NCBI RefSeq assembly: GCF_900114545.1
Contig: NZ_FOTI01000008.1
Coordinates: 1-64,000 of the forward strand
DNA length: 64,000 nucleotides
Reading direction: 5' to 3'
Origin: Halanaerobium salsuginis
Lineage (GTDB): Bacteria > Bacillota > Halanaerobiia > Halanaerobiales > Halanaerobiaceae
Under the pieces are notes generated by a model that saw nothing but the letters and a program-made list of their open reading frames with translations, did not search any database and had not been told where the DNA came from. The translations under genes and the position numbers were made by a program. Positions 8,130 through 49,534 of the stretch are shown in pieces. Each line of letters opens with the position of its first letter. Position 1 is the stretch's first letter.

Positions 8130-9077
8130 ATGGTTTCTGAAATAAAAACAAAAATGATGTCTAAAATTGGCTATACAACTTCAATGTTGGCCCGGGAATT
8201 TCTTTTAAAAAATAAAGGAGATAGAATTAATACAATTAGTGCTTATGCAGAAAATTTTAGTACTGGGCGTGGAACTGTTCAGGCAGCTATCTCTTTTTTA
8301 ACTGAACATCATGCTTTAGAGTTGGAATCAAAAGGTCATCTAGGCAGTTATATAATAAATCTAGATTATCAGCTGCTCTGGGAAATTGCTGATTTAGGTA
8401 TGATAATGGGATTATTGCCTTTACCTTATTCATTACGTTATGAAGGCCTGGCTACCGGTTTGAACCGGGAATTTAAACAGGCAGATTTTCAGTATAGTAT
8501 TGCCTATACAAGGGGTTCAGAAAAAAGAATAAATGTACTGCAGGAAGATAAATATGATTTTGTAATTCTATCCAAATTTGCTGCTAATTATTATCAAGCA
8601 GAGCTGCAGAATGAGCTTGATTTAGAAATTTTAATGGGTTTTGGTCCTGGCAGTTATCTTTCTAAACATGTAATAGTTTTTTCTGATCCAGCCAGTCAGC
8701 AAATTGAGTCTGGTATGAAGATTGGGCTTGATCCATCGTCAGCTGACCATAAAATTTTAACGGAGCTTGAATGTCAGGATAAAGATGTAGAGTTTGTAGA
8801 ATTAACTTATATGAAAATAATGGAGCATATTAGAAATAAGACAATTGATGCTGCAGTCTGGAATTATGATGAAATTAGTGAACTAGAAAATATTAATTTT
8901 TCTGATCTGCAGAATGAAAGCTCTTTAACAATGAATAAAGAAATTAGCACTGCAGTTATTCTGGTTAACAAAAACAGCAGGCTAATTAGGAGAATTCTCA
9001 ATAAAACAATTGATCCAGCTGAGGTAGTCAAACTGCAGCAGGCGGTATTAAAAAGACAGTTGATTCCAGAATATTAG
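8130..9077 (+). CDS. yhfZ: YhfZ-like transcriptional regulator
   Basis: This 315-residue protein matches the YhfZ type: an N-terminal winged-helix region (about 15-75, with GRGTVQAAISFL as the recognition helix area) joined to a C-terminal periplasmic-binding-protein-like effector domain. It heads a nine-gene unit that holds homologues of the E. coli yhf genes, and two dyads lie in its own leader. It probably controls the operon and itself in response to a pathway metabolite. The ligand is unknown. The start is the ATG after GAGGAGGG. Confidence 0.82.
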   Translation: MVSEIKTKMMSKIGYTTSMLAREFLLKNKGDRINTISAYAENFSTGRGTVQAAISFLTEHHALELESKGHLGSYIINLDYQLLWEIADLGMIMGLLPLPYSLRYEGLATGLNREFKQADFQYSIAYTRGSEKRINVLQEDKYDFVILSKFAANYYQAELQNELDLEILMGFGPGSYLSKHVIVFSDPASQQIESGMKIGLDPSSADHKILTELECQDKDVEFVELTYMKIMEHIRNKTIDAAVWNYDEISELENINFSDLQNESSLTMNKEISTAVILVNKNSRLIRRILNKTIDPAEVVKLQQAVLKRQLIPEY

Positions 9078-9087
9078 GAGGAATAAG

Positions 9088-9456
9088 ATGGATGCAAAGT
9101 TGAAAGAAAGACTTGAAATTTTAGTAGCAGGAGATTTGTTGACAGAAGAATTAAAAAATAAGTTAGAAAGTTTATTAACTGATTTTGAAGCTAGTTATCA
9201 GGTAGAATTAAATAATGATAATGCAGCTATGCTGGTCACCCATTTGCCAATGGCTTTAATGAGAATTAAGCGTGGCGAAGCAGTTGAAGACTTAAATGAA
9301 GCAGTTTTAACTGAATTGAAAGCAGAAGAATTTTATACAGATTGTTTAGATTTTATTGAGAAAATTGAAGTGGAAACAGGAATTGAAATACCAGAGGGAG
9401 AGAAAAACTATCTGGTACTTCATTTTTGTAATTTAATTAAACAGCAGAGGGGGTAA
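9088..9456 (+). CDS. yhfY: YhfY-like PRD-domain protein
   Basis: This 122-residue protein is all-helical and resembles a single PTS-regulation domain (PRD), as in E. coli YhfY. The segment with LVTHLPMALMRIKRGEAV near 49-66 is the typical PRD core, with a histidine at about 52. The EKNYLVLHFCNL part near 105-117 holds a second histidine. There is no DNA-binding domain. It sits 11 bases after yhfZ and probably works with it as a sensor subunit; how it senses is unknown. Confidence 0.78.
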   Translation: MDAKLKERLEILVAGDLLTEELKNKLESLLTDFEASYQVELNNDNAAMLVTHLPMALMRIKRGEAVEDLNEAVLTELKAEEFYTDCLDFIEKIEVETGIEIPEGEKNYLVLHFCNLIKQQRG

Positions 9457-9460
9457 TAAG

Positions 9461-9817
9461 ATGAAGATAGTAATTGGAGGTCAGGTTGATCGTCAAAAAA
9501 TTGCTGATAAAGTAGTAGAAATTACTGATTCTGAAGTTGAAGTCGAAGTTATGGATGATATTCAAGCAGCAACAGCTATTAAAACAGGAGCAGCTGATTA
9601 TTATTTTGGAGCTTGCCACACTGGTGGCGGTGGTGCTTTAGGTATGGCAATGGCTATTTTAACTAGTGCTAAATGTGCAACAATTTCGATGCCTGGTCGT
9701 GGACCTAAAGAAGAAAAAATAATTGAAGAATTAGAAGCTGGTAAGGTTGCTTTTGGTTTTACAGCTGATCACATTGATAAAGCTGTTACATTATTAATCA
9801 AAAATATTTTGAATTAG
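9461..9817 (+). CDS. yhfU: YhfU-like DUF2620 protein
   Basis: This 118-residue protein is a small DUF2620 protein. The most striking part is a glycine-rich, cysteine-containing loop, YYFGACHTGGGGALGMAMAIL (about residues 47-67), followed by TISMPGRG. The fold looks like alternating strands and helices, and the loop could bind a phosphate or nucleotide, but no activity is established. It is always seen beside YhfT, which suggests a cytoplasmic partner of that transporter. The ribosome site GAGGGGGT precedes the ATG. Confidence 0.8.
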   Translation: MKIVIGGQVDRQKIADKVVEITDSEVEVEVMDDIQAATAIKTGAADYYFGACHTGGGGALGMAMAILTSAKCATISMPGRGPKEEKIIEELEAGKVAFGFTADHIDKAVTLLIKNILN

Positions 9818-9888
9818 GTTTTACTTGAGCTAAAAATATTACTTAGATAAGAAAGCTTGCTCAATTAATTAAACAAGGGGTGGAAAAA

Positions 9889-11160
9889 ATGCAGACAATT
9901 TTAATGGCCTTAATGGGTGGACTGGCAGCTATTTTGACTAATAAGGGGATAGCAGTGTTTAATGATGGCCTGCGGCCAATTATTCCAGAAAATGTTGAAG
10001 GTAGGATGAGCAAAAGAGACTTAGCGGCAACTTCTTTTGCAATGAGCTTTGGTCTGGTAATTGGATTTGGAATTCCATTTAGTCTTTCAGCTAATATTCT
10101 TTTGATACATAGTATTTTATTAGGAACTGATGTCATAGGGACCTGGGCACCAAAAGGAAAAAAAGGAGTCCTTACTGCTGGTGTAGTTGGAGCTCTCTAT
10201 GGTCTAGGTTTAATGTATGGTCTTGGTTTTATTGTAGATGTTTTTGCTAAATTACCAGTTAACTTTCTTGATGATTTAGGTAAGGTTGGTAATCCAATTG
10301 TAGTAGCTTTTGCTGCCTTCCCTGCTCTGGCAACAGCTTATCAATTTGGTGCTAAACGAGGTGTTTTTAATCTGCTTGCAGCAGGTATTGTTCGTCAGCT
10401 GGCAGTTAGATTTAGTCCTCTGCAGCTAGGAGAAATCCAGGTTGCAATTAATCCAGAAGGAATGGCACTTATTACTGGAATGGTAATCTTACTAATCTTT
10501 GCTGCTGGAGAAAAAGGAAAGAGTAGTGGAGTTAGTGATCTAGTTTCTGTTTTTAGCGAAAGAGTTGCCAGGATTAAAAAGAATTTACCTCTGCTGGCAA
10601 TAATGGGAGCACTTGTTTCAGCTGCGACTGCCTATCAAATTCTGGCTGGTGATCCAATTTCTCTAAACTTAGTTAAAGAGGGAGATTTAAATGCAGCGGC
10701 TTTAGCAGCTCTGGCAAGAGGAATTGGTTTTATACCTCTAATTGCTACTACTGCAATTGCAACAGGTGTGTATAGTCCAGTCGGTATGACTTTTATTTTT
10801 GCTGCAGCTTTATTTTTAAAGAATCCCCTTCTGGCAGCTTTAGCTGGTGCGATTATTATTTCTTTAGAAATTCTTTTTCTGGATAATATGGCTGGTCTGC
10901 TTGACAAGTTTCCCGGTATTAAAAAAGCAGGTGATAATATCAGGACTGCTATGAGTAAGGTGCTAGAAATTGCTCTTTTAGTTGGTGGTATGAATGCAGC
11001 TAATGCTATCTTACCTGGCTTTGGCTTCTTCTTTGTTGCTGGTCTCTATATTTTAAATGAAATTGCTGATCAGCCTATAGTCAGGATGGCAGTTGGTCCT
11101 ACCGCCGCAATTTTGGTTGGTATAATTGCTAATATTTTTGCTATCTTTTCTTTAGTATAG
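9889..11160 (+). CDS. yhfT: YhfT-like multi-pass membrane transporter
   Basis: This roughly 423-residue protein has about ten or more hydrophobic spans and matches the YhfT family of inner-membrane transporters of unknown substrate. Recognisable parts are an N-terminal LMALMGGLAAILTNKGIAVF, the ATSFAMSFGLVIGFGIPFS stretch and a GIATTAIATGVYSP-like segment in the second half. A GTG at 9880 is in frame, but the ATG at 9889 fits the GGGGTGG ribosome site better and was chosen. It probably imports the compound that the following enzymes break down. Confidence 0.78.
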   Translation: MQTILMALMGGLAAILTNKGIAVFNDGLRPIIPENVEGRMSKRDLAATSFAMSFGLVIGFGIPFSLSANILLIHSILLGTDVIGTWAPKGKKGVLTAGVVGALYGLGLMYGLGFIVDVFAKLPVNFLDDLGKVGNPIVVAFAAFPALATAYQFGAKRGVFNLLAAGIVRQLAVRFSPLQLGEIQVAINPEGMALITGMVILLIFAAGEKGKSSGVSDLVSVFSERVARIKKNLPLLAIMGALVSAATAYQILAGDPISLNLVKEGDLNAAALAALARGIGFIPLIATTAIATGVYSPVGMTFIFAAALFLKNPLLAALAGAIIISLEILFLDNMAGLLDKFPGIKKAGDNIRTAMSKVLEIALLVGGMNAANAILPGFGFFFVAGLYILNEIADQPIVRMAVGPTAAILVGIIANIFAIFSLV

Positions 11161-11193
11161 TTGAAAATTTATCCGAAAGGATTTGAGTAAGAG

Positions 11194-12303
11194 ATGAAAG
11201 ATCTGTCAGAAAAATTATTAACTAAATTTAATAATGCTCTCCAGACAAATTCTGCTGCAGTGGTCTATCATAATCGGAATTTAAAACCAAAATTAATAAA
11301 TCTTTATAATACAGATAAAGAGCATTATTTATTTGGAGTCAAAAATACTGCCCAAATTCCAATTGATTTAGTAAAAAAGTTAAGTCAGGATAATAAATTC
11401 TTTTTACACACAATTGATAAGATGGCCTGTGGTGGACGCGCAGTTGACCCTGATTTGATAAATCCACTAACTTTACGTGTAATGACAGGTTCTAGTAGTG
11501 GTGGCTGTATAAATATTCTGGCGGGAATAAATGACTTAGCAATAGGCACAGATGGAGGCGGCTCGGTTTTAGCTCCTGCTGCTTCCACAGCTTTATTTGC
11601 AATTATGGCGAAAGGTTTAGGATTAAAAGGTCAACAGCAGAAAATATCTACTGATGAGCTTAAATTTGTACCTGGAATTGGATTTATTGCTGCTGAATAT
11701 CAAATTTGTCTAGCTGCTGTAAAAAAGTTACTTTCTTTTCCGGAACTGCCAGAGTTAAACAGTAATTTAACTATTGCTCTTCCGCAGCCGGGAAGCTGTA
11801 CTTTACCTGATGGCCAGGATATGGCAGAGTTAGTTGCTTTAGCTGAACCTAATCTAGCAAAATTTAAACTAAATAGAATTGACTTAACTGGTGCAGCAGA
11901 TAGAAAAACTGCAATTAGAATTATTGAAGCTGCTTTTGCAGCAGGAGCTGAAATTATTATTACAGCAGAAGGGCCGGTAGATTATTATGGTTATGGAGAT
12001 TCAGTTCATGGCAGCTGGCAGATTGGAAAAAGCAGCCAGCAGCGCAGTGGTAAATACTTGATGCGGGCAGCTAACCTAGTTAATGCAACTGCATTGGCTT
12101 TGCCAACTAACAAGCTGGCAACAGCTTTAATTTTAATTGCTCGTCCTGGCTTAGAATCTGGCCTAAAATTACTGAGCTTAGGTCTTAAACTGCAGAATTT
12201 ATTTAAACGTCCTGAACTTTTTAAACGATATTTTATTAACCAGCAGAGAAATGAAAAGGAAAATTTTTTAGGAGCTGATAATTTTGATCAATACTTTGGC
12301 TAA
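11194..12303 (+). CDS. Compact amidase-signature-family enzyme
   Basis: This 369-residue protein shows the amidase-signature core in shortened form. The Ser-cisSer-Lys triad can be placed: K50 in LFGVKNT, S101 in TGSSSGG, and the nucleophile S124 in GTDGGGSVLAPA. Typical family members run to 450-500 residues. Here the region before the serine-rich motif and the C-terminal part are both trimmed. The enzyme should hydrolyse an amide bond, substrate unknown. The E. coli yhf cluster has no such gene, yet here it lies between yhfT and php in a tight co-directional run, with its end overlapping php by 20 bases. It is therefore probably a working step of the same pathway. Confidence 0.75.
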   Translation: MKDLSEKLLTKFNNALQTNSAAVVYHNRNLKPKLINLYNTDKEHYLFGVKNTAQIPIDLVKKLSQDNKFFLHTIDKMACGGRAVDPDLINPLTLRVMTGSSSGGCINILAGINDLAIGTDGGGSVLAPAASTALFAIMAKGLGLKGQQQKISTDELKFVPGIGFIAAEYQICLAAVKKLLSFPELPELNSNLTIALPQPGSCTLPDGQDMAELVALAEPNLAKFKLNRIDLTGAADRKTAIRIIEAAFAAGAEIIITAEGPVDYYGYGDSVHGSWQIGKSSQQRSGKYLMRAANLVNATALALPTNKLATALILIARPGLESGLKLLSLGLKLQNLFKRPELFKRYFINQQRNEKENFLGADNFDQYFG

Positions 12304-13180
12304 ACAAATAACTCCTTCTCAAATGGGAATTACTATGTATCATGAGCATTTGACGATTGACCTGTCCCGGCAAAAGTCAGATTCTGATGCTAAATTAACT
12401 GGAGATTTATTACTCAAAGATTTATCTAGAATCAAGGAATTTGGAGTTAAAACTATTATTGAATTGAGTAATATTGGGATGGGTAGAAATTTAAAAAGAA
12501 TGCAAGAACTGGCTGCTAAATTTGACTTTAATATTATTGCCAGTACAGGTTTTTATAAAGAGCCTTATTTACCAGAAATTTTTTATCAAAAAAATGCTGA
12601 TCAACTTACCAGTCTAATGGTTTCTGAAATTAAAAATGGTATTGAAGGAACAAATATTAAGGCAGGAGTTATTGGTGAAATAGGAAGCAGTAAAGAATTT
12701 ACTCCAGCAGAAAAAAAATTATTTAAAGCAGCAGCACAGGCACAACAGCAAACAGGAGTGCCAATAATTACTCATCTTACTCTGGGAAGTTGTGGCTTAG
12801 AACAATTAGAAATTTTAACTGCTAATGGAGCTGACTTAAATAAGGTAGCTTTTAGTCATCTTGATTTAGCAGAAGATATTGACTATATTTTAAAAATTGC
12901 TGAACGAGGTGTTTTTATCGGGATTGATACAATTGGTAAGCTCAAATATCAGACTGATCAGTTTAGAGTAAAAATTGTACAAGAATTAATCAAAGCAGGT
13001 TTTAGTCAGCAAATCTTGCTTTCGACTGATCTAACCCGCTTATCTCATCTCACCGCAAATGGTGGACATGGGTATCAGTATTTATTTGATAGTTTTATTC
13101 CACAACTTGAAGCAGCTGGTTTGAGTAAAGTAGAAATTGAAGCCATAATTACTGATAATCCAGCGCGGCTATTTTCTTGA
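12284..13180 (+). CDS. php: Phosphotriesterase-homology protein Php (YhfV)
   Basis: This 298-residue TIM-barrel metallohydrolase belongs to the phosphotriesterase homology group. Expected metal ligands are visible: H20 and H22 in MYHEHL, a glutamate in GVIGEIG near 126 in place of the carboxylated lysine of true phosphotriesterases, histidines in IITHL and FSHLDL, and an aspartate in LSTDL near 251. The natural substrate of Php proteins is unknown, with a lactone or ester more likely than a phosphotriester. The start is a TTG with GGAG nine bases ahead, overlapping the amidase gene, which suggests coupled translation. Confidence 0.85.
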   Translation: MINTLAKQITPSQMGITMYHEHLTIDLSRQKSDSDAKLTGDLLLKDLSRIKEFGVKTIIELSNIGMGRNLKRMQELAAKFDFNIIASTGFYKEPYLPEIFYQKNADQLTSLMVSEIKNGIEGTNIKAGVIGEIGSSKEFTPAEKKLFKAAAQAQQQTGVPIITHLTLGSCGLEQLEILTANGADLNKVAFSHLDLAEDIDYILKIAERGVFIGIDTIGKLKYQTDQFRVKIVQELIKAGFSQQILLSTDLTRLSHLTANGGHGYQYLFDSFIPQLEAAGLSKVEIEAIITDNPARLFS

Positions 13181-13194
13181 TTGGAGGTTAAAAG

Positions 13195-14292
13195 ATGAAA
13201 ACTTATCCACTGCAGTCATTAACTATTAATGAAGCAGTTCAATTACAATATCAATTAGTTGATACAATTCAAAATGAATTTAAAGGAACAGAACTTCTAA
13301 ACGGAGGTGACTATGGGCTTGATCCTGATCTAAAGCAGCCTCGTTTTACTCATAAAGTAGAACAAGTATTGGCTGATTTTTTTGATGTAGAACAGGCTCT
13401 TTTAGTTAGGGGAGCAGGAACAGGTGCTTTAAGATCTTTTTTTAATGCTAATCTTAAAGTAAATGAATCTGTATTAGTCCATGCTGCTCCAATTTATCCA
13501 ACAACTAAAGTAACTCTAGATAGTATGGGCTTAGCAATTATTAAATTTGATTTTAATCAACTCCAGAGTACTGCTGATATAAAATTATTGCCTGATAAAG
13601 ATTTTGCTGCTATTTTAGTTCAACACAGTCGGCAGCGAATTGATGATCACTATGATTTTAATAAAGTAATTAAAATTTTAAAAACAAAATATCCAGCTAT
13701 ACCAATAATTACTGATGATAATTATGCTGCTCTAAAAGTTAAAAAAATTGGGGTTCAGGCAGGAGCTGACCTAAGTACATTTTCTCTATTTAAACTGCAG
13801 GGACCTGCTGGAATAGGCCTTTTATTAGGGAAAAATAAATATCTAACTGCTGTTAAGAAAATAAACTATTCTGGAGGTAGTCAGGTGCAGGGACCAGAAG
13901 CTATGGCTGCTTTACGGGCAATGGTAACTGCTCCAGTAATTCTTGCAGTTCAGGCCAAAAGTGTAGCTGAGGTAAATGAACGTTTAAATCAAGGAGAAAT
14001 ATCAGCAGTAGAAAGTTCTTTTATTGCTAATGCTCAATCCAAAGTAGTGATTATGAAATTTAAACAGGCAATTGCTAAAGAATTTTTGGCTAAAGTTAAT
14101 CAATATGGAGGAGTTCCTTACCCAGTTGGTTCAGAATCTTGTTATGAGATTGGAGCTATGTTTTACAGAATATCAGGAACATTTCGAGAGCAGGATCCAG
14201 CCGCAGAAAATTATTTAGTTAGAATTAATCCAATGCGGGCTGGAGCCGATACAATACTGAAAATTATTAAAAAAACTTTAGCCAATTTATAA
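13195..14292 (+). CDS. yhfS: YhfS-like PLP-dependent aminotransferase
   Basis: This 365-residue protein is a fold-type I PLP enzyme of the YhfS group. It has the RGAGTGALRSFF cofactor-loop motif near 71-82, a cofactor aspartate in PIITDDNYAAL near 177, and the candidate Schiff-base lysine in TFSLFKLQGPAGIG near 199. The region LNGGDYGLDPDLKQPRFTHK near the start is typical of this branch. The reaction is not known for any member to my knowledge. It lies 14 bases after php. Confidence 0.8.
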   Translation: MKTYPLQSLTINEAVQLQYQLVDTIQNEFKGTELLNGGDYGLDPDLKQPRFTHKVEQVLADFFDVEQALLVRGAGTGALRSFFNANLKVNESVLVHAAPIYPTTKVTLDSMGLAIIKFDFNQLQSTADIKLLPDKDFAAILVQHSRQRIDDHYDFNKVIKILKTKYPAIPIITDDNYAALKVKKIGVQAGADLSTFSLFKLQGPAGIGLLLGKNKYLTAVKKINYSGGSQVQGPEAMAALRAMVTAPVILAVQAKSVAEVNERLNQGEISAVESSFIANAQSKVVIMKFKQAIAKEFLAKVNQYGGVPYPVGSESCYEIGAMFYRISGTFREQDPAAENYLVRINPMRAGADTILKIIKKTLANL

Positions 14293-14306
14293 AGGTAGTG
14301 ATAATT

Positions 14307-15500
14307 ATGTTTTTAGAGAAAATGCAGCAGCGAAATCCAGAATTAATTGAGACAGCTTTCTATTTACACCGCAAAGAGATACTGGAAGCAAATACATATA
14401 TTTTAGACCTTGACCAGATTAAGGCCAATGCAGCCTTAATGGCAAAAGAAGCAGCTCACTATAATTTCAAACTTTATTTTATGACTAAGCAGTTGGGACG
14501 TAATCCATTAGTTGCTAAAGCAATATCTGCAGCAGGGATTGAAAAAGCAGTTGCTGTTGATCCCTGGGAAGCCAGAACTCTGGCCCAGGCTGGTATTAAA
14601 TTGGGAAATGTTGGTCATTTAGTTCAAGTTCCAGATACTATGCTGGCTGAGATAATTTTTTATCAACCGGAAATTATGACAGTATATAGTCTTGCTAAGG
14701 CAAAAAGAATTTCCGAAATTGCTCTGGCTCAGGGAAAAGTGCAGCCAATTATGTTAAGAATATACAGTCCAGATTCTTTTAATTATCAGGGGCAGATGGG
14801 AGGAATTAGCTTAACTGAGCTGGATAAGTTTGTAACAGAAATTATTAAATTAAAAGGAATAACTTTAGCCGGTTTAACTGCTTTCCCCTGTTTATTATTT
14901 GATTACGAAACTAAAGTAATTAAAACTACACCTAATTTAGAATTAGTAGTTAAAACAGCAGCTGATTTAGCTCAAAAATACGGAATTAAAATTAAACAGC
15001 TAAATACTCCAAGTGTGACCTGTCAGAAAACTATTAGTATGTTAGCTGAAGTTGGTGCTACTCATGGCGAACCAGGTCATGGCTTAACCGGAACAACCCC
15101 CTATCATGCTTATGCTGATCAGGGAGAAAAGCCAGCTTTACTCTATCTTTCGGAAGTGTCCCATCTTTTAGATCAGCAGGCCTATATTTTTGGAGGAGGA
15201 TTTTATAGCCGTTCTCATTTAAAATATGCTTTAGCTGCTGGAGATAACTATCAGGTAGAATCAAAACTATATTCAGCCAGTCAGCCGGCTGCTGAGATGA
15301 TAGATTATTATGCAGCTCTAGATAATAGCTCAGCTAAGCTTAAAGTTGGGGATACAGCTTTACTGGCTTTTCGAACTCAAATTTTTGTTACTAGAGCTCA
15401 GGTAGCAGTTGTAAGTGGAATCCAGACTGGTAAATTAAAATTACATGGTATTTATAATAGTCAGGGCCAGCTGCTATCTAAAAAGGAGGAACTACTATGA
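14307..15500 (+). CDS. yhfX: YhfX-like alanine-racemase-fold PLP protein
   Basis: This 397-residue protein has an N-terminal PLP barrel of the alanine racemase type followed by a beta-rich C-terminal domain. The likely PLP lysine is in YFMTKQLGRNP near residue 53, after the LDLDQIKANAALM strand-helix typical of the fold. It is longer than YggS-type proteins and belongs with E. coli YhfX. It may act on a D-amino acid or a related amine. A GTG at 14298 is in frame, but the ATG at 14307 has better spacing from AAAGG. Its last codons overlap yhfW by four bases (ATGA). Confidence 0.8.
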   Translation: MFLEKMQQRNPELIETAFYLHRKEILEANTYILDLDQIKANAALMAKEAAHYNFKLYFMTKQLGRNPLVAKAISAAGIEKAVAVDPWEARTLAQAGIKLGNVGHLVQVPDTMLAEIIFYQPEIMTVYSLAKAKRISEIALAQGKVQPIMLRIYSPDSFNYQGQMGGISLTELDKFVTEIIKLKGITLAGLTAFPCLLFDYETKVIKTTPNLELVVKTAADLAQKYGIKIKQLNTPSVTCQKTISMLAEVGATHGEPGHGLTGTTPYHAYADQGEKPALLYLSEVSHLLDQQAYIFGGGFYSRSHLKYALAAGDNYQVESKLYSASQPAAEMIDYYAALDNSSAKLKVGDTALLAFRTQIFVTRAQVAVVSGIQTGKLKLHGIYNSQGQLLSKKEELL

Positions 15501-16720
15501 GCAAAAGAGCTATTTTATTAATCTTAGATGGATTAGGAATTGGAGCAATGGATGATCTTGCAGAACAGCAACGTCTGCAGGATAGGACAGCAAATACTTT
15601 AGCTAATGTTTTAACAAGTAATCCAGATTTAGAATTACCCAATTTAAATAAATTGGGTCTGAAAGCAGCGGCTAGTTTAACTGAAAGCAAGCCGCTAGCA
15701 GCTGAAATTAATGCTGCTTATAGTCGAGCCAGACTATCCTATGATGGAGCAGATACCTTTATGGGACATCAGGAAATTATGGGTTCAAGTCCAACTCATC
15801 CTAAAATTCAGCCCTTTAAAGAAGTTTATCACGAGGTCGCAGCTGCTTTGATAAAAGCAGGTTATCAAGTAACAGTTCCAGATCAGAATCACCCTTATCT
15901 ATTAGTAAATGAAAAGATAGTTGTTGCAGATAATATCGAAGCTGATTATGGACAGATTTATAATGTTAGTGCCTCTCTGGATGAGATTAATTTTGATACT
16001 GTGCTGGCAGTTGGTAAAACAGTTCGAGCTGCAGTAAAGGTTAGTCGAATTATTGCTCTAGCTGGTAAAAATACAACTACTAAGCAAATTATAGATAGTA
16101 TTGAAAGCCCAAATTCTCAAATAACAGGAGTTAATTCAACAGCTTCTGGAGTCTATGGTGAAGGTTATCAGGTAATTCATTTAGGTTATGGAATTGATCA
16201 TCGTAAGCAAATAAGTTCTATTCTGGCTGAACAGGATTGTGATGTTAGATTGATTGGTAAAGTACAGGATGTTATTCACTGTCCACAAGCTCGCGAAAAA
16301 TTACCAGCAGTAGCAACTGAACAGGTTCTATCTTTAATGTTAAGCAGGTTAGAAGAAGTTGAAAGTGGTTTAATAGCAGTTAATGTTCAAGAAACAGATT
16401 TAGCTGGACATCAACAAGATGCAGCTGAATATGGTCGAGTCTTAAAATTAGTTGATTCCAAAATACCAGATATTTTGTCCCAACTAAAAGAGGATGATTT
16501 ACTGATTATTACAGCTGATCATGGAGATGATCCAACTGTTGGTCATAGTCATCATACAAGAGAAGAAGTTCCTCTTTTAGTTTATCAACCTGGAATTAAA
16601 GCTCAAAAATTTGATCCACGGGCCAGTCTAGCTGACATAGCGGCAACAATTGCTGATTATCTAACTGTTAAGGCACCGGAAAGTGGAGAAAGTTTTCTGG
16701 CAGAGCTTCAACTTAGTTGA
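15497..16720 (+). CDS. yhfW: YhfW-like phosphopentomutase/alkaline-phosphatase-superfamily enzyme
   Basis: This 407-residue metalloenzyme resembles phosphopentomutase (DeoB). It starts with the metal-binding strand ILLILDGLGIGAMDD (aspartate near 11) and carries GADTFMGHQEIMGSSP near 83-98, where the threonine is in the position phosphorylated in DeoB. It ends with the ligand set ITADHGDDPTVGHSHHTREEVP near 335-356. It may interconvert phosphate esters of the pathway sugar or acid. It is translationally coupled to yhfX and is the last gene of the yhf-type operon. Confidence 0.82.
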   Translation: MSKRAILLILDGLGIGAMDDLAEQQRLQDRTANTLANVLTSNPDLELPNLNKLGLKAAASLTESKPLAAEINAAYSRARLSYDGADTFMGHQEIMGSSPTHPKIQPFKEVYHEVAAALIKAGYQVTVPDQNHPYLLVNEKIVVADNIEADYGQIYNVSASLDEINFDTVLAVGKTVRAAVKVSRIIALAGKNTTTKQIIDSIESPNSQITGVNSTASGVYGEGYQVIHLGYGIDHRKQISSILAEQDCDVRLIGKVQDVIHCPQAREKLPAVATEQVLSLMLSRLEEVESGLIAVNVQETDLAGHQQDAAEYGRVLKLVDSKIPDILSQLKEDDLLIITADHGDDPTVGHSHHTREEVPLLVYQPGIKAQKFDPRASLADIAATIADYLTVKAPESGESFLAELQLS

Positions 16721-17018: not shown

Positions 17019-18026
17019 ATGAATTCAAAAACAGCTAAAAAACGTGTTTTTTCTGGTATTCAGCCGACAGGACAAATTCACATTGGTAATTATATTGGAG
17101 CTTTAAGCCTCTGGGTTGAAAATCAGGCTAAATATGATAATATTTTTTGCATAGTTGATCTACATTCATTAACAATTCCAGAAAATATTACGGCAGATTA
17201 TCTTCGGCAAAAAGTGAGAGAGGCGGCAGCACTTTATCTTGCCTCAGGGATTGATCCTGAACAATCAACAATTTTTGTTCAATCTCAGGTTCCAGCTCAT
17301 GCTGAATTGACCTGGCTTTTAAATTGCGTAACTCCAATTGGCTGGCTAGAAAGAATGACTCAATATAAATCTAAATCAGAAAATGTGGAATCAGTTGGAA
17401 CTGGTTTATTTGATTATCCTGTTTTAATGGCAGCCGATATTTTGCTTTATCAGACAGATTTAGTGCCAGTTGGTGAAGATCAAACTCAACATATTGAAAT
17501 TACCCGTGATATTGCGCAGCGTTTTAATCATCTTTATCAGCCCACTTTTAAATTGCCAGAAAAATTAATTAGGCGTAGTGGTGCTAGAATAATGGGATTT
17601 GATGAGCCAACTAATAAAATGAGTAAAAGCAGAGCTGAAGTTTCTGATCGACATGCAATTGGGTTACTTGATTCGCCAGCTAAAATTAAAAATACTATTA
17701 TGAAAGCAACAACTGATTCTGACCGGGAGACTAGATTTGAATATGCTTCACCTGGTGTAAAAAATATGCTGGTTTTATATGAAGCTCTAACTGGAGAAAG
17801 TCGAACAGAGATCGAAAATCATTTTGCTGGCTCGGGATATGGTAAATTAAAGCAAGACCTGGTTGAGGTTGTGGTAGAAACTTTGCGTCCTATCCAAAAT
17901 AAATATCAGCAGTTAATGGAGGCAGAAGATTATTTAACAAAGGTATTGAATGAAGGTCGTGAGCGTGCTCAGACTATAGCAGTCCAGACATTGAATCAGG
18001 TTAAAATGAGAATGGGTCTAAAGTAA
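17019..18026 (+). CDS. trpS: Tryptophanyl-tRNA synthetase
   Basis: This 335-residue class I aminoacyl-tRNA synthetase loads tryptophan onto its tRNA. The HIGH-type signature is IHIGNYIGAL near 21-30 and the KMSKS loop is NKMSKS near 202-207. The TrpRS marks FSGIQPTG and VGEDQTQHIE are both present. Length and motifs are normal. It starts a short co-directional group with a Nudix hydrolase and a protein of unknown function, which ends at the 19438-19463 terminator. Confidence 0.97.
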   Translation: MNSKTAKKRVFSGIQPTGQIHIGNYIGALSLWVENQAKYDNIFCIVDLHSLTIPENITADYLRQKVREAAALYLASGIDPEQSTIFVQSQVPAHAELTWLLNCVTPIGWLERMTQYKSKSENVESVGTGLFDYPVLMAADILLYQTDLVPVGEDQTQHIEITRDIAQRFNHLYQPTFKLPEKLIRRSGARIMGFDEPTNKMSKSRAEVSDRHAIGLLDSPAKIKNTIMKATTDSDRETRFEYASPGVKNMLVLYEALTGESRTEIENHFAGSGYGKLKQDLVEVVVETLRPIQNKYQQLMEAEDYLTKVLNEGRERAQTIAVQTLNQVKMRMGLK

Positions 18027-42132: not shown

Positions 42133-43266
42133 ATGCTATATTTACAGAAATATATTGAAAAAATTATTAGAGGAGAAAAGACAGGTTATCTAGCTGCTGT
42201 ACTAAAGTGGCTGTTATTTTTGCTTTCTTTATTTTATTCCTGTTTAGCAAAATTACGCTACTATCTATATCAGCATAATATTCTGCAGAGAAAAAAAGCA
42301 GAGGTGCCAGTAATTAGTATTGGGAATCTGGCAACTGGTGGTACTGGCAAAACACCTTTTGTTGCCTTTTTAGCTGAAGAATTGGGAAAAGACTACCAGA
42401 TAGCAATTATTAGTCGAGGCTATGGAGCTGAAAAAGAAGTTGTAGAGCCATTTTTAATTAGTGATCAGGCAGGTCTTTATGCTGCTGCAGCTCAAGCAGG
42501 TGATGAATTATTTATGCTGGCTAGAAATAATAGTGAGCTGATTTTTATTCGTTCTGCTGAACGAGCAGCAGGGGCTAAATTAGCAGTAGAAAAAGGAGCT
42601 GATTTAATTTTACTGGATGATGGATTTCAGCATTATCAGCTGGAACGTGATCTTGATATAGTATTAATTGATGCACTGCGACCATTTGATCAGGCAAAGG
42701 TACTGCCGGCTGGATTCTTAAGAGAGCCAGCTACTGCCTTAAAAAGAGCAGATTTATTTTTGCTTACTCGCAGTGATAATGTTGATTGGAATCAATTGAA
42801 AGCTATTCAAGATTCATTACTTGAATACAGTCCTGATAATGATGGTGTTTTTACAGCAGTAACTGAGCTAAAAGGATGTATTTCAGTTGCTGGTCAGGAA
42901 AAAAAAGCAATTGATTTCCTGGCAGGTAAAAAAGTTTTTGCTTTTTCAGGAATTGGCAGTCCAACCGCTTTTAAAAAAAGTATTGAAATTACAGGAGCAC
43001 GTTTAGTTAGTTATAAAGTTTTTGCTGATCATTATAATTATCAGCAGGAAGATTTATTAACTTTACTTGATCAATATTCTGCCTCACAGGCGGACTTGAT
43101 TTTAACAACTGAGAAAGATGCGGTTAAGTTATTTGATTTTGCTGAAATGATTGGTGACCTTCCTTTTTATTATCTGCAGATTGCAATGGAGATCAATGAG
43201 TCTGCTCAATTAATAGAAGTTATTAAAAATAAATTAGCTCTTCGAAAAGCCAGGCATAAAAACTAA
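42133..43266 (+). CDS. lpxK: Tetraacyldisaccharide 4'-kinase
   Basis: This 377-residue inner-membrane P-loop kinase phosphorylates the 4' position of the lipid A disaccharide. The Walker A is ATGGTGKTPF near 70-79, preceded by VPVISIGNL. The LpxK marks ISRGYGAE, GADLILLDDGFQHYQLERDL near 153-172 and LTTEKDAVKLF near 333-343 are all present. An N-terminal hydrophobic helix near 20-38 would anchor it. It leads the Kdo-lipid A block. Confidence 0.96.
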   Translation: MLYLQKYIEKIIRGEKTGYLAAVLKWLLFLLSLFYSCLAKLRYYLYQHNILQRKKAEVPVISIGNLATGGTGKTPFVAFLAEELGKDYQIAIISRGYGAEKEVVEPFLISDQAGLYAAAAQAGDELFMLARNNSELIFIRSAERAAGAKLAVEKGADLILLDDGFQHYQLERDLDIVLIDALRPFDQAKVLPAGFLREPATALKRADLFLLTRSDNVDWNQLKAIQDSLLEYSPDNDGVFTAVTELKGCISVAGQEKKAIDFLAGKKVFAFSGIGSPTAFKKSIEITGARLVSYKVFADHYNYQQEDLLTLLDQYSASQADLILTTEKDAVKLFDFAEMIGDLPFYYLQIAMEINESAQLIEVIKNKLALRKARHKN

Positions 43267-43291
43267 ATTCATTATATTTTGAGGTGTAAAA

Positions 43292-44047
43292 ATGACTAAT
43301 TTAAAAACCGCTGCTATAATTCCAGCCCGCTATGATTCTAGCCGTTTTCCTGGTAAAGCACTTGCCAAAATTGCTGGTAAAGCAATGATTGTTAGGGTAA
43401 TGGAAGCAGCTCAAGAGTGTAAGCTAATTGATCAAGTCTTTGTTGCTACAGACGATGATCGCATTAAAGCAGCAGTTAAAGCAGCAGGTGGCCAGGTAAT
43501 TATGACTGCAAGTACACATCAAACAGGAACAGACCGGATTGCTGAAGCAGCAGCTGGATTACAGGAAATGGACTTAATTGTTAATATTCAGGGTGATGAA
43601 CCTTTAATTAAGCCAGCAACTATTGCGGCTGCTTTACAGCCTTTTGCAGTTGAGCAAGAGCTAATGATGAGTACTTTAAAACGAGAAATTACTTTTTTAG
43701 AGGCCCAAAACCCCGATCTTGTTAAAGTGGTAGTTGATCAAAACGATTATGCTCTTTACTTTTCGCGTTCTCCGATTCCATATTATAGAGCAGATAATGC
43801 TGTTAAAGTTTCAGATAAATTATATTATCAGCATATAGGACTTTATGTTTATCGGCGTGATTTTTTGCTTGATTTTGCTAGTCTAGCAGCAACTCCACTG
43901 GAAAAAGCAGAATCTCTAGAACAATTAAGAGCTCTGGAAAATGGCTATAAGATTAAAGCTATTACTACAGCTGCAACTTTAATTGGGGTTGACCGTTTAG
44001 CTGATATAGAGCTAGTTGAAGCAGAATTAGCAAAGAAGAGACTTTAA
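43292..44047 (+). CDS. kdsB: CMP-Kdo synthetase
   Basis: This 251-residue enzyme activates Kdo with CTP to CMP-Kdo, the donor for WaaA. Family marks are IIPARYDSSRFPGKALAKI near 9-27, VATDDDRI near 51, the NIQGDEPLI metal-binding region near 97-105 and FSRSPIPYYR near 151-160. The length is normal. It lies 25 bases after lpxK. Confidence 0.97.
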   Translation: MTNLKTAAIIPARYDSSRFPGKALAKIAGKAMIVRVMEAAQECKLIDQVFVATDDDRIKAAVKAAGGQVIMTASTHQTGTDRIAEAAAGLQEMDLIVNIQGDEPLIKPATIAAALQPFAVEQELMMSTLKREITFLEAQNPDLVKVVVDQNDYALYFSRSPIPYYRADNAVKVSDKLYYQHIGLYVYRRDFLLDFASLAATPLEKAESLEQLRALENGYKIKAITTAATLIGVDRLADIELVEAELAKKRL

Positions 44048-44124
44048 ATGAAAGATAATTAAACTGACCGATTTTTTAATTAATTAATTGATTGGAAAGT
44101 CAGCTTAAATGAGGGTGATTAATT

Positions 44125-44964
44125 ATGAAAAAAGTAAGACTAAATGAGCAGATAGTTTTCGGGGATCAATCTAAACCTTTTGTTTTACTGGCAGGTCCCT
44201 GTGCGATTGAGGAAGAAGAGCGGGTAATTCGGATTGCTGCTGAAATTAAAGCAATTACTGAGCGGCTTGGTATTCCATATGTGTTTAAGGCTTCTTTTGA
44301 TAAAGCAAATCGATCTTCTATTGATTCTTATCGGGGACCAGGCTTAGAAAGAGGTTTAGAAATACTGGCCCGGGTTAAATCAGAATTAGATTTACCGATT
44401 ATTTCTGATGTGCATCTGCCAGAACAGGCAGCCCAAGCAGCAGAAGTACTTGACATTATTCAGGTTCCTGCTTTTCTATCCAGGCAAACTGATCTTTTGC
44501 TGGCAGCTGGTAAGACTGGTAAAATTGTTAATGTTAAGAAAGGACAATTCTTAGCTCCCTGGGATATTGATCAGGTGGCTAATAAAATTGCCAGTACTGG
44601 TAATAAAAAAATACTTTTAACTGAACGGGGAGTCTCTTTTGGCTATAATAACTTAGTTGTTGATATGCGTTCTTTGCCGCGTCTACATGCAGCTGGTTAT
44701 CCAGTTGTTTTTGATGCAACTCATTCTGTTCAGCTGCCAGGTGCTGCTGGGACTAGTTCTAGTGGAGAAAAAGAATATGTACCACCTCTAATGAGGGCAG
44801 CTCTAGCAGTTGGAGTTGATGCTTTGTTTATGGAAGTTCATGATGAACCAGCTTTAGCTAAAAGTGATGGGGCAAATATGCTGCCGCTTGCTGGTCTGGA
44901 AAAAATACTCAAGCAAGCTCTAATTATTGATCAAGCACAAAAAGATTGTCAGAAAATAAATTAG
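44125..44964 (+). CDS. kdsA: Kdo-8-phosphate synthase
   Basis: This 279-residue aldolase-type enzyme condenses phosphoenolpyruvate and arabinose 5-phosphate. Marks are LLAGPCAIEEEE near 21-32, YVFKASFDKANRSS near 51-64, the KKGQFLAPWD motif near 138-147 and VVFDATHSVQLPG near 194-206. C24 in GPCAIE is the position that binds metal in metal-dependent forms, so this may be the metal type. The end shares bases with an alternative early start of kdsD. Confidence 0.96.
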   Translation: MKKVRLNEQIVFGDQSKPFVLLAGPCAIEEEERVIRIAAEIKAITERLGIPYVFKASFDKANRSSIDSYRGPGLERGLEILARVKSELDLPIISDVHLPEQAAQAAEVLDIIQVPAFLSRQTDLLLAAGKTGKIVNVKKGQFLAPWDIDQVANKIASTGNKKILLTERGVSFGYNNLVVDMRSLPRLHAAGYPVVFDATHSVQLPGAAGTSSSGEKEYVPPLMRAALAVGVDALFMEVHDEPALAKSDGANMLPLAGLEKILKQALIIDQAQKDCQKIN

Positions 44965-45014
44965 ATATTTTAAAGTTGCTTAACGAACAAATTTTAGATG
45001 ATTGGGTGACAAAA

Positions 45015-46025
45015 ATGGAAAAAACTAAATTAACAGAAAACAGTACTGCCGATGATAAATTAAATAAATGTTTAGTTGAAGCGAGAAATACTTTAGAAAT
45101 TGAAGCACAGGCAGTTTCTCAGTTAAAGCAAAAGATTGGTTCAGAATTTAAAAAGGTTATGGAAGTAATTATTAATTGTACGGGAAGAGTTATTTTTACT
45201 GGGGTTGGTAAGACAGGGCTAGTTGGTCAAAAACTAGCTGCTACTTTTTCTAGTACTGGTACTTCTGCTTTTTTTGTTCATGCTGGAGAAGGTTCACATG
45301 GGGATCTTGGCATGATTAAGCAGGGTGATGTTGTAATTGCAATTTCTAATAGTGGAGAAAGCGAAGAAGTAATTAACTTACTGCCTTCTTTACGTAGGAT
45401 AGGAGTTACTTTAGTTGCTTTAACTGGTGACAATAATTCTACACTAGCTAAACAGGCTGATTTAATTCTGGAAGCTTCTGTAGCAGCTGAAGCATGTCCT
45501 AATAATTTGGCACCTACGGCAAGTACTACTGCTGCTATTGCTCTGGGCGATGCTCTAGCAATAGCACTTTCGACATATTATGGTTTTACCCCAGAAGACT
45601 TTGCTCTTTATCATCCCGGGGGATCTCTGGGCAGAAAGCTTTTAACTAAGGTAAAAGATGTAATCAAAATTAGAGAGCAAAATCCAGTTGTAAATTCTGC
45701 CACTGCTACAGTCAGGGAAGCACTTTTCGAAATGACAAAAAGCAGAATGGGTTCAACTTCAGTCGTTGATCAGGCTGGTAAATTAGTTGGAATTATTACA
45801 GATGGTGATATTAGAAGACTGTTAGAAGAATCAGCTGATTTTATTGATCAGCCAGTCAAGAAATATATGACAGTTAATCCGACAACTATCACTGCTGATA
45901 AACTGGCAGCGCAGGCTCTGCAGATAATGGAAGCTAAAGAAATTAATGATTTACCAGTTGTAGCAGCTGGCGAGCCTGTGGCGATGCTTAATTTTCAAGA
46001 TTTATTGCGTGCCAAAGTATTTTGA
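45015..46025 (+). CDS. kdsD: Arabinose-5-phosphate isomerase (KdsD/KpsF)
   Basis: This roughly 336-residue enzyme converts ribulose 5-phosphate to arabinose 5-phosphate, the first step of Kdo synthesis. It has an N-terminal SIS domain with VIFTGVGKTGLVGQKLAATF and HAGEGSHGDLGMI, the HPGGSLGRKLLTKV link, and two C-terminal CBS domains (ATVREALFEMTKSRMGSTSV and YMTVNPTTITADKLA). A TTG at 44946 would overlap kdsA, but the ATG at 45015 with GGGTGA ahead is better. It completes the kdsB-kdsA-kdsD set. Confidence 0.94.
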   Translation: MEKTKLTENSTADDKLNKCLVEARNTLEIEAQAVSQLKQKIGSEFKKVMEVIINCTGRVIFTGVGKTGLVGQKLAATFSSTGTSAFFVHAGEGSHGDLGMIKQGDVVIAISNSGESEEVINLLPSLRRIGVTLVALTGDNNSTLAKQADLILEASVAAEACPNNLAPTASTTAAIALGDALAIALSTYYGFTPEDFALYHPGGSLGRKLLTKVKDVIKIREQNPVVNSATATVREALFEMTKSRMGSTSVVDQAGKLVGIITDGDIRRLLEESADFIDQPVKKYMTVNPTTITADKLAAQALQIMEAKEINDLPVVAAGEPVAMLNFQDLLRAKVF

Positions 46026-46093
46026 TCATAAATAAATCAATTGCTTAAGATTAATTAAATTTAATTGAAGTGACTTATTAAAAGAGGGTAAAA

Positions 46094-46972
46094 ATGGGAA
46101 AAAATAAATTTAAGGATTATTTAAGTGTTTTTGCTTATAAGTTTTTTAAATATATAGTTAATATCTTGCCTAATTTTTTGATAAAACTTCTTGCTAAATT
46201 AATAGCTAAACTTGCTTATTTATTGACAAAAAAACGCAAAAAAATAGCTTTAGCTAATTTAAAAAGAGCACTTAATTTAGATGAAAAATCAGCTAAGCAA
46301 ATATTAAAAGATGTTTATCAGAATTTGAGCTATAATTTTATGGAATTTTTACAGCAGGATAAATTGAGCCAGCAGCAGCTGCTTGAGCTGATTTCTTTTG
46401 TAGATACTGAATATCTTGATCAAGCTTTGGCAGCTGGCAAAGGGGTTATTATTTATACCGCTCATTTTGGGAATTGGGAACTATTAGGAGCTGCTTTAAC
46501 TGCCCGGGGTTATCAAGTTAATGCAATAGCTAGAAAACAAAATAATTCTTTTTTTGATCGGGAAATTAATCAAATTAGGCAGAATAGCAGTCTCAAAATC
46601 ATTCCAAAAGGACTCGCAGTAAGGCAAGTTTTTAAAGCCTTAAAGAAAAATGAAATTGTTGTTATTTTAGGTGATCAAGATGCTCGTCAGAGCGGCTGGA
46701 AACTAGATTTTTTTTCCAGACCAGCTTCAACTTATAGTGGGGCAGTTCAATTTGCGAATAAAACAGGTAGTCCGATTGTACCTGCCTTTTTAAGAAGATT
46801 AGGCTGGCTGGAACATCAATTTAAATTCTATCCTGCTCACAGTTTAAGTAATCTTTCTGAGGCTGATTTAAAACAAGAACTGCAGGATTTATTAACTATT
46901 TCTGAAGCTGAAATTAAAGACCGGCCAGCTAATTGGATGTGGCTGCATAGGCGCTGGAAAACTTTTAACTAA
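46094..46972 (+). CDS. LpxL/HtrB-type lipid A acyltransferase
   Basis: This 292-residue inner-membrane protein adds a secondary acyl chain to Kdo-lipid A. The catalytic motif is TAHFGNWELLG near 122-132, and the second family block is VVILGDQDARQSGWKLDFFSRPA near 193-215. An N-terminal hydrophobic anchor with LPNFLIKLLAKLIAKLAYLL precedes it. Its place between kdsD and waaA fits this role. Which acyl chain and position it uses cannot be told. Confidence 0.92.
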   Translation: MGKNKFKDYLSVFAYKFFKYIVNILPNFLIKLLAKLIAKLAYLLTKKRKKIALANLKRALNLDEKSAKQILKDVYQNLSYNFMEFLQQDKLSQQQLLELISFVDTEYLDQALAAGKGVIIYTAHFGNWELLGAALTARGYQVNAIARKQNNSFFDREINQIRQNSSLKIIPKGLAVRQVFKALKKNEIVVILGDQDARQSGWKLDFFSRPASTYSGAVQFANKTGSPIVPAFLRRLGWLEHQFKFYPAHSLSNLSEADLKQELQDLLTISEAEIKDRPANWMWLHRRWKTFN

Positions 46973-47072
46973 TTCAGCTGTAAATGTTTAAATAGTTAAA
47001 ATATCTTAATTAAATTAAGCTATTTATTTATTAAAAATTGAATTTTAATCAAGAAATCTGAGGGAGTAAAGT

Positions 47073-48395
47073 ATGTATTTGATATATAATTTATTGTTGC
47101 TTTTTCTGTTGATTATTTTATTACCCTATTATTATTTTAAAAATTTAAGCTCAGGTGATAATTTAGGAATTAAAGAACGATTTGCTTTTTATACTGAGCA
47201 GCAAAAAGATCTATTTCCCGCCGAGCAAGTAATCTGGATTCAGGCTGCTTCAGCGGGGGAAACTCTTGCTGCAGAACAGCTGACAGCTGCAATTAGGGAT
47301 CAATATCCAGCTGCTAAAATAATTTTTTCTACATTAACTGCTAGTGGGAAAAGTCTGGCAGAAAAAAAAATTTCAACTGCTGATTTAATTATTTATCTGC
47401 CCTTTGATCTCGATTTTATTGTAAGAAGAGCAGTTAAACTGTTTCAACCTGATCTATTTATAATGATTGAAACTGAACTCTGGCCTAATTTAATTAAAAA
47501 TTTAGCAGCTAATGATTGTAAGTTGATTTTGGCTAGTGGTAGAATTAGTGATGATTCTTTTGATAATTATAAATTGCTTGCTCCTTTAGTAGCTAAAACT
47601 CTGACCAAAGTTGATGTGTTTAGCATGCAAAATCAAGAAACAGCTGGTCGTATTGCAGAACTGGGTGCACCGCTATCTCATATTTGTATTAATGGTAATC
47701 TTAAATATGATCTTGGTTTAAATTCGCCTACCACAGCTGAAATAGCCGTTGAGTTCAAAAGACTTGGCTTAAAAGCAGCAAGTCAATTAATTGTAGCAGG
47801 CAGTACTCATCAGGGAGAAGAAGAAATAATTTTAGCTGTTTATAAAAAATTAGCTGCTGAGTTTAGTCAGCTTAAATTATTATTAGCTCCTCGCTATGTA
47901 GAGAGGAGAGAAGAACTACTGCAGTTGTGCTCAGATTATGGATTGCGAGCAGAACTTTACTCTAAACTAAAGAAAAAAGCTATTCCTACTGATCAGAGAC
48001 AGTCAAATCAGGTAATAATTATTGATACTATGGGTGAATTGGCCCGACTTTATTATTATGCGGAACTTGTTTTTGTTGGTGGGTCATTAATTAAACGGGG
48101 CGGTCATAATATAATTGAAGCAGCAGCTCTAGGCAGGGTTGTATTATTTGGTAACAGCATGTATAATTTTAAAGAAGAACGGGACTTTTTATTAGCAGAA
48201 AAAGCTGCTTTTGAAGTTAGTAATCAGGCTGATTTTTATCAGACAGCTTTTAATTTGTTAGCTGATGATAATTATCGTCAGCAAACGGCAGAGCTAGCTA
48301 AAAAAGTTATTGCAAAAAATCGCGGTTCTGTTGCCAGGCATCTAAAATTAATTGAGGTCTTATTAGATCAGGGAGTAGATGATAATGCTGAATGA
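47073..48395 (+). CDS. waaA: Kdo transferase WaaA (GT30)
   Basis: This 440-residue membrane-anchored GT30 enzyme adds Kdo to lipid A. It has an N-terminal span near 1-20, the acceptor-site motif IQAASAGETLAAEQL near 61-75 with its essential glutamate, MIETELWPNLI near 130-140 and the donor-site stretch FVGGSLIKRGGHNIIEAAAL near 333-352. Whether it adds one or two Kdo units is not visible. Its last codons overlap the following GT9 gene. Confidence 0.95.
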   Translation: MYLIYNLLLLFLLIILLPYYYFKNLSSGDNLGIKERFAFYTEQQKDLFPAEQVIWIQAASAGETLAAEQLTAAIRDQYPAAKIIFSTLTASGKSLAEKKISTADLIIYLPFDLDFIVRRAVKLFQPDLFIMIETELWPNLIKNLAANDCKLILASGRISDDSFDNYKLLAPLVAKTLTKVDVFSMQNQETAGRIAELGAPLSHICINGNLKYDLGLNSPTTAEIAVEFKRLGLKAASQLIVAGSTHQGEEEIILAVYKKLAAEFSQLKLLLAPRYVERREELLQLCSDYGLRAELYSKLKKKAIPTDQRQSNQVIIIDTMGELARLYYYAELVFVGGSLIKRGGHNIIEAAALGRVVLFGNSMYNFKEERDFLLAEKAAFEVSNQADFYQTAFNLLADDNYRQQTAELAKKVIAKNRGSVARHLKLIEVLLDQGVDDNAE

Positions 48396-49440: not shown

Positions 49441-49534
49441 ATTGAATTTTTTAGCAGCAACTTTGAGTTAGCTTAATTCTTTATGAAAGCAAACTTGAAT
49501 TTGAAGCTCAGACTCTGAATGAGGAATGGTTAAT

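Follow-up and report, generated by a model that had tools for sequence, protein, structure and literature searches.

A linked yhf gene block in Halanaerobium salsuginis and its possible role in amino-sugar salvage

The window analyzed here, a stretch of 64,000 nucleotides from Halanaerobium salsuginis, carries homologs of all eight yhf genes of Escherichia coli together with an amidase gene in a single block. In a comparison of 92 loci the yhf genes were linked far beyond chance, and it is nearly certain that the set is a conserved module. We propose that it serves as a mobile salvage module for amino-sugar-containing compounds, probably derived from peptidoglycan, and that its pathway ends in hexosamine-6-phosphate. 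This proposal is tentative, and we would give it close to an even chance. In E. coli K-12, yhf counts among the larger operons that are still unexplained, and the literature searched contained no study of its function.

Linkage and order of the yhf genes

Loci were gathered by YhfT alone from the Bacillota genomes and from a named collection, and the other yhf genes were then mapped. From the named collection, the best 80 of 442 YhfT loci were taken by similarity to the window YhfT, so that rarer arrangements were under-sampled. The enterobacterial neighborhoods sampled were those of K-12 and the Pasteurellaceae. Viral contigs searched for YhfT yielded none. A weak match to the YhfT profile in G143 overlapped an open reading frame (ORF) that resembled nucleobase permeases.

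In the window, nine plus-strand ORFs span positions 8130 to 16720, and neighboring ORFs are spaced by -20 to +62 bp (Table 1). Pfam and NCBIfam models identified them in the order YhfZ, Y, U, T, an amidase-signature protein, Php/YhfV, S, X and W. The ORF coordinates and the curated models bore out the sequence-only reading, which had described the yhf homologs as one co-directional block with short gaps and overlaps.

Across the 92 loci, yhfV was present in 91, yhfU, yhfS and yhfY in 90 each, yhfX in 89, yhfZ in 86, yhfW in 83 and the amidase gene in 54. The yhf genes other than the amidase gene were all co-directional in 92 of 92 loci; yhfY was recorded as divergent in 14 of its 90 loci. Linked yhf genes (about 90 loci) were found in Bacillota, Pseudomonadota, Fusobacteriota, Spirochaetota, Synergistota and Thermotogota. 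The sequence-only reading had called for such a comparison across phyla, and on the 92 loci the genes proved to be linked, not scattered.

The core order Z-U-T-V-S-X-W was seen in 52 loci, and 13 other orders made about 14 in all. This agreed with the earlier claim that the content is kept while the order changes. Conservation of content with drift of order indicated that the yhf proteins almost surely act together. The earlier view that the window locus is unusually reordered did not hold, since its order, Z-Y-U-T-(amidase)-V-S-X-W, is the commonest one in Bacillota. The E. coli order given there, S-T-U-V-W-X-Y-Z, is the reverse of transcription, which runs Z-Y-X-W-V-U-T-S on the minus strand. 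Z and Y lead in transcription both in E. coli K-12 and in the window.

Amino-sugar and cell-wall genes beside the clusters

Neighbors were found by clustering of the flanking ORFs and by family scans. Genes within 600 bp were counted as adjoining, and 10% of the flank sequence lies that close. NagB was within this distance in 10 of the 11 loci that had it, always co-directional with the cluster (binomial p about 1e-9), and in L089 it was inside the cluster. The NagB model TIGR00502 was matched above its cut-off by two of three proteins tested, and the third (L053) fell just below. Proteins of the PBP4B/YfeW type were within 600 bp in 12 of the 14 loci having them (binomial p about 1e-10). Such crowding into a tenth of the flanks is not due to chance.

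MurQ, MurP, MupG and NagA adjoined the clusters in L025, L038, L041 and L060. The cluster of H. kushneri (L025) was followed by MurQ-MurP-MupG, and that of Sporomusaceae L041 by GntR-PTS-MupG-MurQ, where PTS is a sugar phosphotransferase system. In Thermoanaerobacter (L038), MupG-MurQ preceded the cluster and NagA followed it. A lactose/cellobiose-type PTS and MupG were located inside the cluster of L042. NagZ-type glycosidases, HPr and chemoreceptors were further neighbors.

On the YhfT tree, adjacency required 8 changes for NagB, 9 for PBP4B and 5 for the Mur genes. This indicated that the associations arose many times independently, and not from one event. The association of yhf with genes for the recycling of peptidoglycan and N-acetylmuramic acid (MurNAc) is beyond chance. 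In E. coli, murQ-murP-yfeW is one operon with yfeW as its third gene (PMC5061867). In Staphylococcus aureus, MupG, MurQ and MurP act on MurNAc-N-acetylglucosamine (MurNAc-GlcNAc) (PMC6262408). The recurrence of NagB, NagA, MurQ, MurP, MupG, PBP4B and NagZ points to an amino-sugar substrate, most likely from the cell wall.

The same neighbors could be read more broadly. The module may be catabolic for amino-sugar conjugates in general, such as glycated amino acids, chitin or glycan fragments and amino-sugar acids, and the MurNAc genes would then be nearby because amino-sugar catabolic genes collect together. NagB and NagA serve all sources of GlcNAc, the E. coli yhf genes are beside frlABCDR (fructoselysine), and upstream of the cluster in Leptotrichiaceae L069 are a PTS of the glucose type and a gene resembling N-acetylneuraminate anomerase. 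However, among the loci sampled frl adjoined none but that of E. coli, whereas the peptidoglycan-specific PBP4B, MupG, MurQ and NagZ recurred in independent lineages. We consider this broader reading clearly less likely than a cell-wall source, and the most serious of its competitors. A specific link to fructoselysine was rejected, as frl was not seen at other loci.

Proteins resembling MetE/YxjG (by eye) were directly beside the cluster in Halanaerobium G404 (L137:2283-3473) and upstream of Z in two Fictibacillus species (L055 and L057).

The amidase as a ninth member

The amidase gene, absent from the E. coli yhf genes, is a recurrent ninth member of the cluster, a membership that the sequence-only reading had not recognized. 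The YhfT tree required 10 or more changes in its presence. Its position also varied: it followed T, lay between V and S or between X and Y, took either end of the cluster, or stood divergently upstream. In the signature region, which includes the Lys-Ser-Ser triad of the amidase family, K50, S100, S102 and S124 were invariant (alignment A3).

YhfU and the RpiB fold

The AlphaFold2 model of YhfU (DUF2620), with a mean predicted local distance difference test score (pLDDT) of 95.6, matched RpiB structures with a Foldseek probability of 1.00 and template modeling (TM) scores of 0.67-0.70. The Pfam family Gly_rich_SFCGS was matched by 41 of 53 YhfU proteins (best E 1.9e-6), and profile comparison of YhfU with SFCGS gave an E value of 4.8e-6. 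The SFCGS profile, PF14272, in turn matched true RpiB weakly (3.6e-4). Comparison of YhfU with a single RpiB by hhalign was weak alone (E 0.03). The YhfU motif C52-H-T-G-G-G aligned with the RpiB motif C-G-T-G-I-G, and its Cys was invariant among the homologs aligned. In RpiB, this Cys is the catalytic base (PMC3212906). The LacAB_rpiB family PF02502 was matched by only one of the 53 members (E 0.017), which argued against membership in the RpiB sequence family. The fold, the SFCGS bridge and the CxTGxG motif together suggested that YhfU may work like an RpiB-type sugar-phosphate isomerase while standing outside that family. The sequence-only reading had missed this likeness.

SFCGS proteins occur in a cassette of their own (L112-L117), with a PRD protein, DUF4312, an amidohydrolase, DUF4311, DUF4310, a SelA/DgaE-like pyridoxal phosphate (PLP) enzyme and a KDGP aldolase. 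The DgaE-like PLP lyase is a homolog of glucosaminate-6-phosphate lyase. The cassette looks like a glucosaminate-type pathway, and it parallels Y-U-T-V-S.

The two cassettes raise the idea that YhfY-YhfU-YhfT and PRD-SFCGS-DUF4312-DUF4311-DUF4310 are unrecognized uptake systems of the phosphotransferase type. The PRD histidine would receive a phosphate from HPr and hand it on to the Cys of the RpiB-fold protein, and what the membrane protein delivers would be an amino sugar in phosphorylated form. In each of the two cassettes, membrane proteins are combined with a PRD protein and an RpiB-fold Cys protein. Neither the PRD His nor the YhfU Cys varies, and HPr genes are beside some clusters. The PRD histidine, H52 of YhfY, was conserved in all homologs aligned, including E. 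coli YhfY (alignment A13). On the other hand, RpiB proteins use the same Cys as a base, and Synergistaceae L058 has YhfT without U or Y. We regard such an uptake system as improbable.

Conserved sites and structures of the other proteins

Solved E. coli or Shigella counterparts exist for YhfS (4j8l), YhfX (4kbx), YhfV (1bf6/4lef) and YhfZ (2ozz). The Schiff-base lysine K200 of YhfS was invariant (alignment A10; 4j8l, E 1e-106), and so was the PLP lysine K64 of YhfX (alignment A9; 4kbx, E 3e-88).

When aligned to phosphopentomutase 3m8w, YhfW kept the metal ligands and the acceptor Thr/Ser (T87) after the GxD motif, and its cap region was divergent (also alignment A12). We take the roles of these residues to be those generally ascribed to the Bacillus cereus phosphopentomutase. 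YhfW is nearest to phosphopentomutase and YhfU to RpiB. This would fit the salvage of modified nucleosides or pentose phosphates, in which YhfW, like DeoB, would be a pentose-1-phosphate mutase, YhfU, like RpiB, a pentose-5-phosphate isomerase, and the PLP enzymes would act on an amino-acid decoration. In L054 and L072, a nucleoside hydrolase was found at a distance of 1.4 kb. However, few of the loci had this hydrolase, in contrast to the recurrent NagB and PBP4B, no nucleoside phosphorylase or kinase recurred among the neighbors, and the cap region of YhfW departs from that of phosphopentomutase. Nucleoside salvage is thus an unlikely role.

The metal ligands of YhfV, HxH...E...H...H...D, were conserved (alignment A11, in which row L050, a YhfS, was disregarded). 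Php (1bf6/4lef) was by far its best match in the PDB, and the two have the metal-site residues in common. The match to the Php equivalog NF007373 scored 286.7 bits against a cut-off of 486. As a member of the phosphotriesterase (PTE) family, YhfV could be the center of a system for detoxification of organophosphates or phosphonates. However, the alignment shows Glu in YhfV at the position of the carboxylated Lys of catalytic PTEs. Phosphonate genes did not recur nearby, and detoxification would leave the PLP enzymes and NagB unexplained. We hold it to be very improbable.

The AlphaFold2 model of YhfT had a pLDDT of 89.5, and a fold search against the PDB gave no match at E<=0.001. YhfT is thus a candidate for a new membrane-protein fold. 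That it is a fusion of DUF4311 and DUF4310 was rejected at the sequence level (hhalign probability 0.2-0.3% with both).

Table 1. Genes of the yhf block in the window
Gene	Position	Strand	Product	Model match
yhfZ	8130..9077	+	GntR-type helix-turn-helix and periplasmic-binding-like C domain; regulator	NF041241 (equivalog; 368.9 bits, cut-off 260); PF14503, E 1e-76
yhfY	9088..9456	+	Stand-alone PRD domain	PF00874, E 2e-13 (50.7 bits, cut-off 23)
yhfU (DUF2620)	9461..9817	+	RpiB-fold protein, CxTGxG motif (C52)	PF10941 (148.8 bits)
yhfT	9880..11160	+	Polytopic membrane protein, presumed permease	PF10797, E 1e-175 (584.9 bits)
amidase	11194..12303	+	Amidase-signature hydrolase (predicted)	PF01425 (31.3 bits, cut-off 27), signature region only
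php/yhfV	12284..13180	+	Phosphotriesterase-like metallohydrolase	PF02126, E 3e-82
yhfS	13195..14292	+	Fold-type I PLP enzyme	PF22475 (YhfS-like_C; 130 bits); PF00266 (Aminotran_5)
yhfX	14307..15500	+	Fold-type III PLP enzyme, alanine-racemase fold	PF21279 (YhfX-like_C; 107.5 bits); PF01168 (Ala_racemase_N)
yhfW	15497..16720	+	Phosphopentomutase-like enzyme	NF009049 (529.4 bits, cut-off 254)

For yhfX, the start at 14307 was preferred over that at 14298 because of the conserved MFL start in the alignment. A transposase-like ORF (DDE/IS6-type by eye) occupies 205-1563 of the minus strand and lies 6.5 kb upstream of the yhf genes. Halanaerobium is a diderm member of Bacillota, and this is fitted by lipopolysaccharide-type genes at 42133-52457 of the window (3-deoxy-D-manno-octulosonic acid (Kdo), heptosyl- and acyltransferase-like, by eye).

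Proposed mobility of the block

Of the genomes sampled, 12 of 399 from the phylum and 4 of 12 from the genus Halanaerobium had YhfT. The window YhfT is 87-88% identical to those of H. kushneri and H. saccharolyticum. The nine genes were intact at four different Halanaerobium sites. They adjoined trpS in the window, murQ-murP-mupG in H. kushneri (L025/L135), a NagB-like gene in L137, and unrelated regulators and transporters in H. saccharolyticum (L026/L136). We propose that the block moves horizontally as an intact module.

Loci L022 and L038 had flanks 93-96% identical. In L022, as compared with L038, T-amidase-V was swapped for a divergent T alone, and MurQ was missing too. This exchange suggested that T, the amidase and V work as a single front end that is specific for the substrate. 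L014 grouped with L038 as a cluster near-identical to that of L022, apart from the same exchange.

A tryptophanyl-tRNA synthetase (TrpRS) gene at 17019-18026 directly follows yhfW. Its product shares 50% identity with TrpS of E. coli, but only 37% with the second TrpRS of its own genome. E. coli trpS also adjoins yhf, at the yhfZ side. The adjacency was absent from other loci, so it was treated as coincidence.

Proposed function

In the pathway that we infer, from its substrate and each of its reactions to their sequence and the importer role of YhfT, YhfZ would sense an inducer, and YhfT would import a compound in which an amino sugar is linked to a second amino-containing moiety. Amide or ester (or lactone or phosphoester) bonds of this compound would be hydrolyzed by the amidase and YhfV. 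The PLP enzymes YhfS and YhfX would process the amino-acid or amino-sugar-acid part. The phosphomutase-like YhfW and the RpiB-like YhfU would act on the phosphorylated sugar, and the product would leave as hexosamine-6-phosphate for NagB. The natural source would most likely be material from cell-wall (peptidoglycan) turnover. The protein families agree with the earlier suggestion that an amino-containing compound is imported and broken down, and this suggestion is here sharpened to amino sugars, most likely of cell-wall origin.

Several observations weigh against this proposal. In about two thirds of the loci none of these neighbors adjoined the cluster. In the window, MurQ and NagB do not adjoin it, and the murQ-murP-mupG operon of the organism is on another contig, without yhf. 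The PTS and the sialate-anomerase-like protein of L069 may mean that the neighbors mark amino sugars generally. W was missing from some Bacillales clusters and the amidase from 38 loci, which suggested that some of the assigned steps can be dispensed with. In the Synergistaceae, two loci (L058:9938-12161 and L081:80-2256) had YhfT and YhfV only; L058 had none of the other yhf genes within 10 kb, and L081 is truncated where its contig ends. The literature searched yielded no data on ligands, growth or enzyme activity for yhf.

The recurrent cell-wall amino-sugar neighbors offer a first concrete place to look for the function of yhf. The comparison gives a short list of candidate substrates, namely the phosphates of glucosamine, GlcNAc and MurNAc, and muropeptides. 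It also adds a ninth component, points to a possible role of DUF2620 and SFCGS as isomerases, and flags YhfT as a candidate new fold.

Comparison with known systems

The E. coli K-12 genes yhfSTU-php-yhfWXYZ (b3376-b3383) resemble the window block in having all eight families, co-directional, with Z first and Y second. Unlike them, the Halanaerobium cluster includes an amidase gene, closes with X-W and has U-T ahead of V, and it sits beside CorA and a second TrpRS gene.

The SFCGS cassette is like yhf in having a single PRD protein, an RpiB-like homolog of YhfU, membrane proteins, an enzyme of the amidohydrolase superfamily and a fold-type I PLP enzyme. It differs in that its DUF4311 and DUF4310 membrane proteins are not detectably related to YhfT, in its BglG regulator, KDGP aldolase and HAD protein, and in its lack of X, W and the amidase.

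The genes of the MurNAc recycling operons (murQ-murP-yfeW and mupG-murQPR) recur beside or inside yhf clusters. In contrast to these operons, yhf lacks its own etherase and PTS, and none of its enzymes is related to MurQ, MurP or MupG.

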